Origin: Cunninghamella blakesleeana
Lineage: Eukaryota > Mucoromycota > Mucoromycetes > Mucorales > Cunninghamellaceae
Assembly: GCA_017871115.1 (NCBI GenBank)
Contig: JAFCIZ010000006.1
Location: 2,604,001-2,668,000 of the forward strand
Reading direction: 5' to 3'
DNA: 64,000 nucleotides
Positions within the stretch are counted from its first letter, which is position 1; each line of letters begins with the position of its first letter. The position numbers and the translations under genes are program-made. Below, one piece after another: positions 44,595-64,000 of the stretch. The notes under the pieces were generated by a model. It searched no databases. It was not told where the DNA came from and saw nothing but the letters and a program-made list of their open reading frames with translations.

Positions 44595-46621
44595 TATTAT
44601 TATTATATCCTAGTATTCTTTTTCTTGTTACTACTACTTACTCTATATCCATAATTATTTCTATTATTATGATTATGATTACGATTACCACCACGATGAC
44701 CATGGTAACCACGATAATTTCCACCACGATGACCACCACGACCTCTGAAGTTACGGAATCTAGATTGATCTACAGATGCTTGTCCAAAAGTTTCCATATT
44801 AAGTCTACGTTCTTCATGGAATTTGCCACGACGATCGCCACTTCTATATGAGAAATAATATATATTTGTTAATCATCGATATTTGCATAAATAAACATTG
44901 ATATATCTATTTATAAATATATATATGTACGTATGTATGTATGTATATATTTAAAAACTTACGATTCTTGATCTTGGCGTTCTTTAGATTCGCATGAAAT
45001 ATTATCAAAGAAACTCTTGCTCTATAAAAAAAAAAAAAAGAAGGAAAAAAAATAAAAAGAGACAAAGATGTTAAAAAAGATTCAAATATTAATTTTTTTA
45101 AGATACATATATAATAATATTAATAACAATTAATATATAAGCTTACCTTATCATAAAATTCTTCATCATTAGGAGGAATAATAACTTTTTCTTCTTTTTG
45201 TTCAGTATTGGTATTGACAACTTCAGCCTCTTCATTAGCGCCACCACCCATTAATTCTTTAAGCAAATCATTTTTACTGAATTTAGCATTAGAAGATTCA
45301 AAATCGAAATCAGATTGAGGAACATGAACACGTTGCTGTTTTCCAGGTTGATTACGTGTTCCATTTGTATGGCCAGAATTATTTTGACGATAGTTATTAT
45401 TATTAGCATTAGTGTTAGTATTAGTGTTGTTATGACGAGGACCACGATAATTATTTTGACGATGGTGAGATTGTTGTTGTTGTTGTTGTGATGAGGATGT
45501 AACACTTTCTTCAGGTTCTGTAGAATCAACATCTAATTCACTTACTTGTTTAGCCAAATTTTCAACAGCAGCACCATCAATTTCATTTTGGTCTAATTGT
45601 TCCGTAAGGTTATTTTGTACATCATTAACATTAGTAGTAGATTGTTGTTGAGACGATTGAGGCTCATTATTATTAGGAGTAGGAACTGGTTGAGGCATAG
45701 TAGTAGGTAATGTAGGTAAAGAAGAAGAGGGAGAAATGGATGATTGTTGAGGTTGCTGTTGTTGATTAGATGGAGGCATTGGAGGTTGACCAAGAGGCAT
45801 TTGTTGACCATACATGGGTGTTTGCCAATACATTGCTTGAGGAGGAGGATAGTTAGGCATCATATAAGGATTCATAGGGGGAGGATACCCCTTTACAGAG
45901 TGCTATAAATACATGTATAAAAAAGAAAAAGAAAATAACACAGGTAGAGAAAAGTTAATAATTATTTTTTTAAATAATACGTAACTTTTTATCGCTATTG
46001 TGATTCTTTATATATATTATTTACATTAATAGCAGGATCAACTATTGCTTGAGCATGTTGTTGTGGAGCAGGTGGAGCAGGTTTTGAGGGAGCTTCGAAA
46101 ACTTGCAAGTCTTTAATATCAGAACCTCGGAAGACAACAAAATCAAAAACAGTATCGGAAGCTGCAACTTCATCATCAGGATTCCCACGACGACCTTCAG
46201 TACCAAAGGATCGTACTATAAATGAAATAATAAATATATGTATAGAATATATTATTATTATTATTATTAATATAAAGATGAAACTTGGTAATCACTGTTC
46301 TCTTATTCTTTTCCTTTTCCTTTACTCTTGTTCTTTTTATTATTAATATATTCATTTTATAAATATATTTAAGAGTATTATTATTTACCATTTTCCAAAG
46401 ATACTGTAGAATCGTTAGTGTTTATACTGTGAAGAGTACCAACATATCTAATATCACTTAAACTGATAAGCTAATAATATGAAATAAAATCATAAGTAAA
46501 AAATTAGATCACTCCATCTATACTTGAGAAAAAAAAAAAAAAAAAAAAAAATACAAATGTAAATAAACATTAATATTATTATTACCGATATCTTTGAGCC
46601 AATATAATTTTGCCCACTCAT
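44432..46621 (-). CDS. Scd6/LSM14-family mRNP protein
   Basis: Seven minus-strand exons, 46621-46586, 46470-46389, 46215-46025, 45902-45147, 45021-44963, 44843-44642 and 44497-44432, give 463 residues in phase. The N-terminal LSm14 domain starts [32 protein letters not shown] and [14 protein letters not shown], with [12 protein letters not shown]. Then a Pro/Gln/Met-rich linker, [12 protein letters not shown] (DFDF motif), [12 protein letters not shown] (FFD box), [14 protein letters not shown] (TFG box), and RGRGG/RGG repeats followed by a Gln-rich tail. This is the full Scd6/LSM14/RAP55 order. Such proteins repress translation, bind Dcp2/Edc3/DDX6-type partners and sit in P-bodies and stress granules. 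Low-complexity Asn/Gln and RGG segments fit condensate formation. Confidence 0.93.
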
Positions 46622-59342: not shown

Positions 59343-62300
59343 TTAATTATTATTGTTATTATTTTCTTCTTCCCTCTTCTTTTTTAAATATTCATCTTCT
59401 AAAACTTGTTCTTCATCACCTACAGGGGCTACTTCATTATATTCAGATTCTTCCAAGGTGCCAGGTTCATGATTGCGTTCAATATCAAGTGTTGTTTCAC
59501 CATTGTCCAACGTTTTCACTCTAACTCGACAAACTTCATTACTTCTGATTGAGCCATCAATTAATAATCTTGCAAATGGGTTTAATAATGATTTTTGAAT
59601 TAATCGATTAAGTGGACGAGCTCCTAAAGCTGGATCATATCCTCTTTCTCCTAACCAATTACGTGCTGCTTCATCCACATCCAAAGTAATACGTCTATCT
59701 TTAATTCTTTCTTGTACTTCTTTAAGTCGGACATCTACTATTTGTCGTAAAGCTGATTTTGATAGGCGATTAAAGACAACCTGTTTATATAAAAAAATAA
59801 AAAAAATTAATATAGATAATAATTATAAATTATACATATACATTTATATGTTGTTCTATATTTCATTTATTAATTACCAATTCATCTATACGATTTATAA
59901 ATTCAGGAGCAAATGCTTGACGGACTGCTTGCATAACTGATTCGCGAGCCCGTTTACTTACTGTTTGCTCATCTTTAGCATCCATAGCTAATGCTTCGCT
60001 TCCAAGATTGGATGTCATAATAATTATTGTATTTTTAAAATCAACCTTTCTTCCTTGACCTTCATAATTTTTTTAAAATAAAAAGAAATTGAAGAAAGAG
60101 AGTTAATGTATTTGGAATATTATTATTATTATATGGTTTTTCTTATTATATCCATATTTTCATTTTATTATTATTGTCACTTACTATCGGTTAAAACACC
60201 ATCATCAAGTACTTGTAAAAGAATGTTCGATACTATATATAAAAAAAGAAAAAGAAATGACCAAAAAAATAAAAAAATCATGTTAAAAGTTTTTTTTCTT
60301 TTTACTTTTTTAAAAAATTAACTCGGTTATTCAAAAATTACCATCTCTATGTGCTTTTTCAATTTCATCCAATAAGATAACCGCCGCTGCTCTTTTACGA
60401 ACCGCTTCAGTAAGTTGTCCAGCCTCTTCATAACCTACATAACCTGGAGGTGCACCAATTAATCGACTAATAGAGAATTTTTCCCTGTAATTGACATTAA
60501 TAAAGTAAATAAAATTCAATAGAATATATATATATATACATAATTATATTAGTATATCAATTTTGAACGCTTTTTATTGCATTTTATTTTTTTAGTACTT
60601 ACATATATTCTGACATATCAATTCTAACAAGGGCCTTTTCTGTATCGAATAAAAACTTGGCGAGTGTTTTACATAATTCAGTTTTACCAGTACCAGTAGA
60701 ACCCAAGAACATGAAGGAAGCAATTGGGCGAGAAGGATTTTGAAGACCAGCTCGACTAAGACGGACAGCTTCAGAAACAGACTAATATAAATATATAAAA
60801 TATAGATAAGTTGGGAGATTGAATAATAACTTTATTATGTACTTGTATTGTAAGAGTTACATACCCTAATGGCTTCGTCTTGACCAACGACATGTTTAGA
60901 AAGAACATCTTCCATATGCAATAGTCTTTCCCGTTCTCCTTTCATCAAATTCTATTGTATTTTAATAAATAAGTAAATAAATAGATAAGTAGGAATAGTA
61001 ATAGTAATTTATAAACAGCAACAGTTGAGAATTGCTATTTTTAAAAAAAAGCAACTAAAAGAATATTACTTACAGTAACAGGAATGCCTGTCCAACGGGA
61101 TACTACACGAGCAATATCATCGCTGGTTACACGTTCATGTACGAGTGAATCTGGACTTTCATCATCAGAACTATCATTAAAAAAATAAAAAATAAAAACG
61201 GAAAAATAGTGATAGTTTAATAGAATAATCAATTATTGTAATTTTTATATTATTGTCATTATATTTTACCCTGGTAATTTTTTTTCTAAGTTTGGAATGA
61301 CACCATATCGTAATTCAGACGCACGTTGGAAATTGCCATTTCTTTGAGCTATCGTTTAAATTAACAAATATATATATATACATATATATATATTATTTAT
61401 GAATAAAGATAATATGGTTATATATATAAATTATAAATTATTATTGTTATTATTACTATTAATAGTATTGTTTTACCAGCTTCTAAATCAACGCGTGCTT
61501 GTTCCAAATCTTGTTTTACCAGTTTAATATTTTCCAATTTTTCACGTTCTTTATTCCAAATATCATTGAGACGTTTACTTTCTTCTTGTTTTGATTTTAA
61601 ATCAGTTTCTAAAGATTCTTTTCTTTCCAAGGATGATATATCAGTTTCTTTACGTAAAGATTCTAATTCTATTTGTATTGTCATAATTTGTCGGTCTAAA
61701 TTTTCTAACGCTTCAGGTTTACTTTCTTGTTGTAATCTTAATTTAGAGCATGCTTCATCTACTAAGTCAATAGCTTTGTCGGGGAGAAATCTAATTAATA
61801 ATATATATATATATATATATAATTAAATTTAAGCAGTTTATTCATTTATAATGTATTTTTTTTTCACAATTTGTATTTACCTATCAGCAATATATCGATT
61901 GGAATGAATAGCTGCGGCAACTAATGCAGAATCCTATAAGGTATCATATGTAAAAGTTTAGTTCATCAGTGGTGATTATATACATAGTTGATATCATATG
62001 TTTATATATATATTGTATAGCTTACGGAAATTCTAACTCCATGATGTACTTCATAACGCTCCTTAAGACCACGAAGGATAGAAATAGTATCTTGTACAGT
62101 AGGCTCGCTTACCTATAATTTTTTTAGAAAAATATTATTGAATATACAAATATATGTAGGTATAAAACTTTTTTGTTCCATTTTCGTTTTTTTATTATAT
62201 AACTATTTTGCTTATTTACCATGACTTGTTGAAATCGTCTTGCTAAAGCTGGATCGGACATAATGTACTATATATAATAATAGTAATTAAATAACAGTAA

Positions 62301-64000
62301 TAATAATAAAAAATATCAATTAATTAACTTGGCTAGATGAACATATAATAATACAATAAGGATTATAAAGATGTTAATACCTTACGATATTCATCAATTG
62401 TAGTAGCACCCACACAGCGAAGTTGACCTCTTGCAAGAGCAGGCTATGATAAAATATATTTGGTATAGAATTAATTTCATATAATAGCAGTGATGTTTAT
62501 GAAATGTGTATTAATTACAATTTTTTTTTAATGTAATTACTTTGATTAAATTTGCAGCATCCATAGCGCCTTCAGATTTTCCCAATCCAAGTAATGTGTG
62601 TATTTCATCAATAAAAAGAATAATCTTTCCTTCAGCTTCTGTTACTTCTTTAAGAACTGCTTTTAATCGATCTTCGAATTCACCTCTATAAAAAATAAAT
62701 AAGTAAGTAAATAATATATATATTGCTTTTTTTTATTTATAAAGCACTCATGATTCTTTCATACTATTACCGATATTTTGCACCAGCGACCAAACTCTAT
62801 ATTAAAGAAGGCAAGAAAATTTAATAAAAATATACATATATTTATAAAAAATATTGATTATATTATATATTATATATATATCCATCCACTTACTCCCAAG
62901 TCCAAAGCAATTACTTTGCGATTTTGAATGGATTCAGGGACTTCATTAGCTACTATTCTTTGAGCAAGACCCTGTATATAAATAAAACAATAAAAAATAT
63001 ACATAATTTAATCAAATCTTATCTTTTTAAACCCAGTTCTATTGTATTATATGTATAATGCATTACTTCAGCAATAGCAGTTTTACCGACACTATATTAA
63101 CTCACGTAAAAAATAAATTAATATTCAATATTTTTATTTCATTTAATTTTGTATTTAAATGTATAGATTTGAATATATAAATATACACTTACCCAGCTTC
63201 ACCAATTAAGACTGGGTTATTTTTTGTTCTTCGAGCCAAACTATTTTAATACCAATATTGATGTATTACTTTATCTGATCTAACTCTGTATGTATTCATA
63301 TATTTTTAAACACACTTACACTGGAAGTCAAAAAAAAAAAGTTATTTATACGGTTACTTATATTTATTACCAGTATAAGTATTTTCATTTATTTAATTTA
63401 CCTTCAAGAGTTCGTCTGATTTCTTCGTCTCTTCCTATAAAAAAGAATTATAATCGTGAAAAAAACAAATAAATAATAATATTCAAAGAATGGGCGCTTT
63501 TTTTATTAGTATTAGAGAATATATATATATATATATATAAACTTACCGATAACTGGATCCAATTTTCCTTTTTCTGCCATAGCTGTCAGATCCAAACCCT
63601 TGAAAAAAATAGTAAAAAACGCGTGATTAAAATGGTCATGTATATTGCCGTTATTATTATTATTATTATTATTGTATAATTTATATACTTACATATTTTT
63701 CCAAGGCTTTTTCCTCAGTTTGTTCTTGGTTAGGATTTAAACGAAAACCTCCTTGGCCACCTGGATTACCACCTACATGAATAGGATAAGAGTATAAAGG
63801 CTTACAAGCATTAATTATATTAACGGTTGTAATATAGATATATATATATTATATTACCATTATATAATCTTTTAGTGACAATAGGTAAATATAAAGCTTT
63901 ATTAAACTTTAAAGGTGTTTGAGTTGATAAAATAGTACGAGAGTTTTGTTTTATGATTAATCTTGAAGAAGAAGGTCGTGTAAAATGATATGAACGTATG
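59343..64000 (-). CDS. HSP78: Mitochondrial Hsp78 (ClpB-type disaggregase), 5' partial
   Basis: At least 23 minus-strand exons: 64000-63858, 63772-63693, 63598-63547, 63434-63402, 63320 (one base), 63240-63193, 63091-63067, 62971-62894, 62796-62771, 62685-62541, 62443-62381, 62267-62220, 62112-62026, 61933-61881, 61790-61477, 61348-61270, 61170-61074, 60951-60865, 60781-60603, 60484-60342, 60232-60185, 60059-59878 and 59780-59343. This gives 815 codons plus stop; the start codon lies just beyond the window. The Arg/Ser-rich beginning suits a mitochondrial presequence. There is no ClpB N-domain, as in Hsp78. NBD1 starts [15 protein letters not shown] with Walker A GEAGVGKT and [10 protein letters not shown]. 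The coiled-coil middle domain lies in exon 15. NBD2 has [23 protein letters not shown] and LLDEIEKAH. The protein refolds matrix aggregates with Hsp70. The tail is acidic, then Asn-rich. Confidence 0.93.

Follow-up and report, generated by a model that had tools for sequence, protein, structure and literature searches.

A very probable one-nucleotide exon in the Hsp78 gene of Cunninghamella, with signs of the same exon in related fungi

We found that a single T at position 63320 of the window (the whole stretch of DNA analyzed here, 64,000 nucleotides long) is very probably an exon of its own, one nucleotide in length, in the gene for the mitochondrial ClpB-type disaggregase Hsp78. The frame of the flanking exons, the splice signals, the intron sizes, a conserved valine, and the breaks seen in models of relatives at the same codon together support this reading, and the exon is probably used constitutively. 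Exons of this kind were already known; what is new here is evidence for one, very probably real, that would be common to Mucoromycotina and probably also to Glomeromycota, with many of the Hsp78 models listed for these groups being wrong at the valine codon. The features concerned are as follows.

59343 to 64000, minus strand: Hsp78 gene as far as it lies in the window (contig C6), with the start codon at 64074, outside the window; identified from homologs and ClpB structures.
63402 to 63434, minus strand: exon 4, 33 bases, ending CTT GAA G in phase 1.
63321 to 63401, minus strand: intron 4a, 81 bases, GTAAAT...TTCCAG, with a run of 11 Ts at 63340-63330; TAAC at 63344-63341 may be its branch site.
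63320 to 63320, minus strand: putative one-nucleotide exon, T, the middle base of the Val128 codon G-T-T.
63241 to 63319, minus strand: intron 4b, 79 bases, GTAAGT...AAATAG, with a strong donor and a weak acceptor.
63193 to 63240, minus strand: exon 6, 48 bases, entered in phase 2, with T TTG GCT CGA as its first bases.

Read on the minus strand from 64074 to 59343, the gene encodes one protein of 840 codons with 22 GT-AG introns, provided that T 63320 is counted as an exon, and with that base included no further frame problem was found along the whole gene from start to stop. Among the matches listed, the closest Hsp78 proteins were those of Cunninghamella echinulata (95% and 94%), placed in Mucorales, Mucoromycotina by taxonomy look-up, and C. 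blakesleeana (85%). A preliminary description had held that exon 4 stops in phase 1 before GTAAAT while the exon starting at 63240 requires phase 2, and the sequence bears out both phases. Joined directly, exons 4 and 6 differ in frame by exactly one base and a stop follows, and lengthening exon 6 upstream of 63240 leads into a TAA (read by eye), as described. Between the flanking exons lie, at the places given there, the run of 11 Ts, GACTTCCAG (63329-63321), the single T, and GTAAGTGTG (from 63319). A usable acceptor and a usable donor enclose one base (AG-N-GT) and leave two introns of viable size, whose lengths of 81 and 79 bases had been correctly reported. Insertion of the T yields GAA-G-T-T-TTG, which is read as E-V-L-A-R-R and restores Val128, the conserved valine of the NBD1 motif, in agreement with the original proposal. 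The arrangement is not the zero-length exon of recursive splicing, as one base separates the acceptor AG from the donor GTRAGT. The junction strings implied are GAAGTTTTGGCTCGAAG for the one-base exon, GAAGTTTGGCTCGAAG for the direct join, and GAAGGTTTGGCTCGAAG for a reading with glycine, which is considered below.

The 161-base gap was then scanned for internal exons with GT/GC-AG boundaries that keep the frame free of stops and have 20 or more bases of the gap to either side. T 63320 (CAG, T, GTAAGT), which gives V, was the top-scoring frame-restoring internal exon at 13.7 bits. The earlier statement that the frame can be repaired by no other splice site was nearly right, but four weaker internal exons and one single-intron solution also keep it. 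Three of the four exons add residues or alter the valine: an exon of 16 bases (12.9 bits, only 0.8 bit behind T 63320 on splice score alone) leaves a 29-base intron and places ELDQIN where V should be, a single A (9.7 bits) leaves a 44-base intron and changes V to D, and an exon of 10 bases (3.3 bits) again leaves a 29-base intron, with DQIN in place of V. The fourth, the T at 63314, six bases on, leaves mRNA and protein unchanged and scores -10.3 bits, 24 bits below T 63320. The single-intron solution uses ACCCAG and deletes ten motif residues. We regard it as most unlikely that one of the four other small exons is used instead. Such use is favored by the score of the 16-base exon, close to that of T 63320, and by P0003, a second C. 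echinulata model, which reads TLEDQINLARR as though annotated with the 10-base exon, spurious in the window. However, introns of 29 or 44 bases stand against 83-128 bases for the others of this gene, the three exons that leave such introns break a motif that is intact in 29 of 29 listed Mortierellomycota models, and the score of T 63314 speaks against that base.

When the gap was shuffled 20,000 times by dinucleotides, with the 6 bases at its start and the 16 at its end left in place, an equally good one-base exon with both introns of at least 60 bases arose in 0.07% of the shuffles, or in 0.05% with the base restricted to T. The other 20 introns of the gene have a mean of 102 bases (s.d. 13.6), and the gap taken as one intron of 161 bases lies 4.3 standard deviations above it (z=4.3). 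Introns 4a and 4b would be the two shortest of the gene, the next being 83 bases. Their donors (8.5 and 8.6 bits) fall inside the range of the other 20 introns (3.7-11.8), whereas their acceptors (4.2 bits for 4a and 2.7 for 4b) fall below it (4.8-13.1), these reference scores being somewhat inflated because the same 20 introns built the matrix. The intron 4b acceptor, AAATAG, lacks a clear pyrimidine tract, and five AGs lie 28-45 bases upstream of it; in this it differs from the acceptors of the gene's other introns.

An assembly error could also account for the broken frame. Exon 6 would then truly begin TTTTGG, one 161-base intron would suffice, and CAG-T-GTAAGT would be there by chance. 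Long-read assemblies err in T runs, a single T missing from the T run would repair the Hsp78 frame exactly, and the motif by itself shows no enrichment in the genome, as detailed below. Nevertheless, the resulting intron would be an outlier in length, this codon is also not intact in the models of many other species, and the reading of P0001 needs the identical three Ts. P0001, a C. echinulata model that is ~95% identical and comes from a contig of different length, reads TLEVWPEEQKII, with EVW at the join, as expected for a direct join over three Ts; had there been four, the reading would be VLA. Its differences from the window in the TLEVWPEEQKII stretch can be explained as synonymous changes in the VLARR frame. 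Since P0001 and P0003 both fail in ways that the window DNA predicts, an error in one assembly is unlikely, and we consider this explanation as a whole to be very improbable.

The motif was also searched for in the window and in the host genome (31.9 Mb in 12 contigs). The window contains YAGNGTAAGT at two places, a number that 7 of 100 shuffles reached or exceeded, which indicates that the 10-base core is not rare by itself; the second occurrence (44636-44645, minus strand) resembles an ordinary exon-end donor. The 27-mer around T 63320 had one match in the genome at up to 3 mismatches. Genome-wide, T8-N{0,14}-YAG-N-GTAAGT was not enriched, with 9 overlapping matches against 16 for a reversed-pattern control. 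Its five distinct places were Hsp78, two at which ATGGCTAGA is followed by GTAAGT (first exons, judged by eye from the matched text), one read as the antisense of an exon, and C1:6618529. The relaxed T5 pattern was likewise not enriched genome-wide (54 matches at 31 distinct places against 80 in the reversed control). All 31 places were scored by a rough coding script, which served for ranking only, since its one-base score has a built-in bonus; besides Hsp78 and L089, eight places were read by eye. L106, L126, L099, L097, L107, L129, and L103 resembled ordinary exon ends by eye, and the motif of L115 recurs in L125. L089 (C1:6618529-6618555, minus strand) is a candidate one-base T exon, with TCTATAAATAG, T, and GTAAGT, in a gene for a 415-aa protein with multiple membrane spans (Pfam DUF7789 at 22.5 bits, under the cut-off of 25). 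There, a plain donor, GTATTG, which lies four bases further downstream, would also keep the frame and give one 245-base intron; thus, a one-base exon is not claimed at that place.

Next, we classed Hsp78 models of relatives, drawn from the best 120 matches of each of three homolog searches, by their reading at the Val128 codon. The counts refer to models and not to species, several coming from one species (e.g., R. irregularis, Phycomyces, and Entrophospora), and groups were assigned from organism names and recall, with taxonomy look-up for Cunninghamella, Mucoromycota, Basidiobolus, and Calcarisporiella only. The 50 listed Mucoromycotina models comprised 16 with valine, 9 with glycine, 12 with an insertion, and 13 of other form, the last including models that begin at or downstream of the site, so that 34 of 50 were not intact. 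None of the 18 listed Glomeromycota models was intact (valine 0, glycine 1, insertion 4, other 13). All 29 listed Mortierellomycota models carried the valine, as did 19 of the 23 listed models from other fungi, where three had an insertion and one, P0253 (Limtongia), was unmatched and carries Ile. The 118 listed homologs of mostly bacterial origin had V in 79 and I in 32, with 7 unmatched. Plant P0025 and the ENA records P0246 and P0252, the latter with valine, were left out of the group counts, and a separate count was made for 12 short-contig proteins (9 with V and three unmatched, P0063, P0068, and P0251, of which P0251 has Ile). A disruption score tried for these counts missed the V-to-G models and picked up natural divergence elsewhere; therefore, the codon classes were used in its place.

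The breaks took the form of a skipped exon (TIQ-AGVGKT), a late start (MIRLSRR), or read-through (TLEASLYHSLARR), and a further one, TLEGILARR, possibly reflects a shifted donor. Models that have extra residues or begin just before L(A/S)RR were listed by hand (27, several of them from close relatives and hence not independent), and in 19 of them the residue before L(A/S)RR was S or R, as would be expected if the AG of a phase-2 acceptor plus one base were translated. P0030 (Rhizopus) has the valine and has lost the residues after it. These patterns suggest that the one-base exon may be common to Mucoromycotina and, with less certainty, to Glomeromycota. Against a shared exon, the 16 Mucoromycotina models with valine show no visible difficulty. 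Models of Calcarisporiella (P0056), Spizellomyces (P0107), and Basidiobolus (P0121) also break here, and two of them have V-S after Q, hinting at a phase-0 donor, perhaps with a different small exon or a shifted boundary. In the search for the Hsp78 DNA of relatives, a degenerate exon-6 acceptor pattern had 0 matches in genome_contigs and 0 in viral_contigs, and a protein query on viral contigs listed at least 80 loci; orthologous DNA was not found by these scans. A short-query homolog search for transcript fragments was swamped by bacterial ClpB, with two proteins fungal by name among the 120 listed.

The glycine models raise another explanation, namely a non-canonical single intron (GAAGG / TAAAT...ATAG / TTTGG) that would give TLEGLARR. 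Exactly this glycine is present in 10 listed models (9 of 50 from Mucoromycotina and 1 of 18 from Glomeromycota) compared with 0 of the 111 matched among the 118 mostly bacterial homologs, and it was likewise absent from the 29 Mortierellomycota and the 19 intact models of other fungi listed. However, the reading requires a GT-TA or TA-AG intron, and the three Phycomyces models disagree, offering three solutions (G, V, and read-through). We therefore give a glycine-coding intron very little probability. The glycine models would be best explained by transcripts that exceed the annotated exons by one base and were forced onto the genome at the splice-site G. A transcript with the string GAAGTTTTGG would speak against the glycine, which implies GAAGGTTTGG.

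Uninterrupted proteins with the valine were also found. An Hsp104-like paralogue in the same genome has an open frame of 829 codons with the valine codon in line and no gap. P0015 runs for 801 codons without interruption in a 3,315-base sequence and has the valine; it is 94-96% identical to Lichtheimia models, and the L. corymbifera model P0042 starts exactly at the valine junction. P0007 (828 aa, 2,627-base sequence) is likewise uninterrupted with the valine present. Since both are uninterrupted, P0015 and P0007 probably derive from spliced RNA, although processed gene copies are possible. Seven other short-contig proteins with valine were not used, being not evidently of Mucoromycotina (nearest relatives were compared for six, P0250 aside). 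P0015 also bears on the idea that splicing joins exons 4 and 6 directly and that the ribosome slips backward by one base once it has read GTT. Such a -1 shift would yield E-V-L-A-R-R as well, but inspection showed no classical slippery heptamer where the exons meet, and transcript-like P0015 has the valine in one frame, so that we assign a ribosomal shift a very small probability.

With T 63320 as an exon, the spliceosome would remove two short GT-AG introns of 81 and 79 bases independently by intron definition, and probably either of them could go first. The first acceptor would be defined by TTCCAG with its T11 tract, and GTAAGTGTG would act as the strong donor of the second intron; these two sites need never be bound simultaneously, as once one intron is gone the remaining one would have a full-length exon beside it. 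Since introns here are ~100 bases long, intron definition would be enough, and the one-base exon itself would not have to be recognized by any factor. The product, GAA-G, T, and T-TTG, would then carry Val128. We judge it somewhat more probable than not that this exon is ancient, already carried by the ancestor that Mucoromycotina and Glomeromycota share, kept since, and lost by intron loss in, for example, Rhizopus. The time since that ancestor is several hundred million years. The exon is perhaps older still, given that one Spizellomyces model and those of Calcarisporiella and Basidiobolus break in a similar way.

Hsp78 would add a second fungal gene to the very short list of one-nucleotide exons, and in a widely conserved chaperone. 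Its many natural orthologs would allow a test of how an exon without room for splicing factors persists over deep time. The exon would also explain why listed Hsp78 models of many Mucoromycotina and Glomeromycota are truncated, padded, or glycine-bearing, and a gene finder that permits one-base exons could correct them. If the ancient origin is true, the exon would be among the oldest of its kind known, and one conserved chaperone would be misannotated across these fungi.

In the open-licence literature searched, we found no report of a one-nucleotide exon in Hsp78 or in Mucorales. Placozoan mitochondrial cox1 reportedly contains a one-nucleotide exon (PMC5436844). The preliminary description rightly called such exons rare and named APC11; VPS55 and CYP621A are further nuclear cases. 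In the parts of the sources consulted, the APC11 exon of Arabidopsis and other land plants is an A located 333 bases into its gap, proven by cDNA and minigenes (PMC4674806, PMC8831610). As in Hsp78, one base lies between two spliceosomal introns, the frame needs it, and annotation missed it; most monocots have intronless copies of APC11, and Rhizopus may be likewise for Hsp78. APC11 differs in being a plant gene with base A and cDNA and minigene proof. The VPS55 exon is deeply conserved in land plants (PMC8831610) and resembles that of Hsp78 in the GTRAGT donor that follows the base and in its absence from annotations; unlike Hsp78, it is described from plants, with gene duplicates with and without the exon and alternative transcripts in early lineages. 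A parallel in fungi is the P450 gene CYP621A, whose one-nucleotide exon, a G, is described from Fusarium only and was confirmed by RNA reads (PMC12940212, as far as consulted). Both fungal exons lead from phase 1 to phase 2 and supply the second base of a codon that belongs to a conserved motif, and in both the merged intron is unusually long and database models are wrong at the site. In contrast to the restriction of the CYP621A exon to Fusarium, the Hsp78 models that are not intact span Mucorales, Umbelopsis, Jimgerdemannia, and Glomeromycota.
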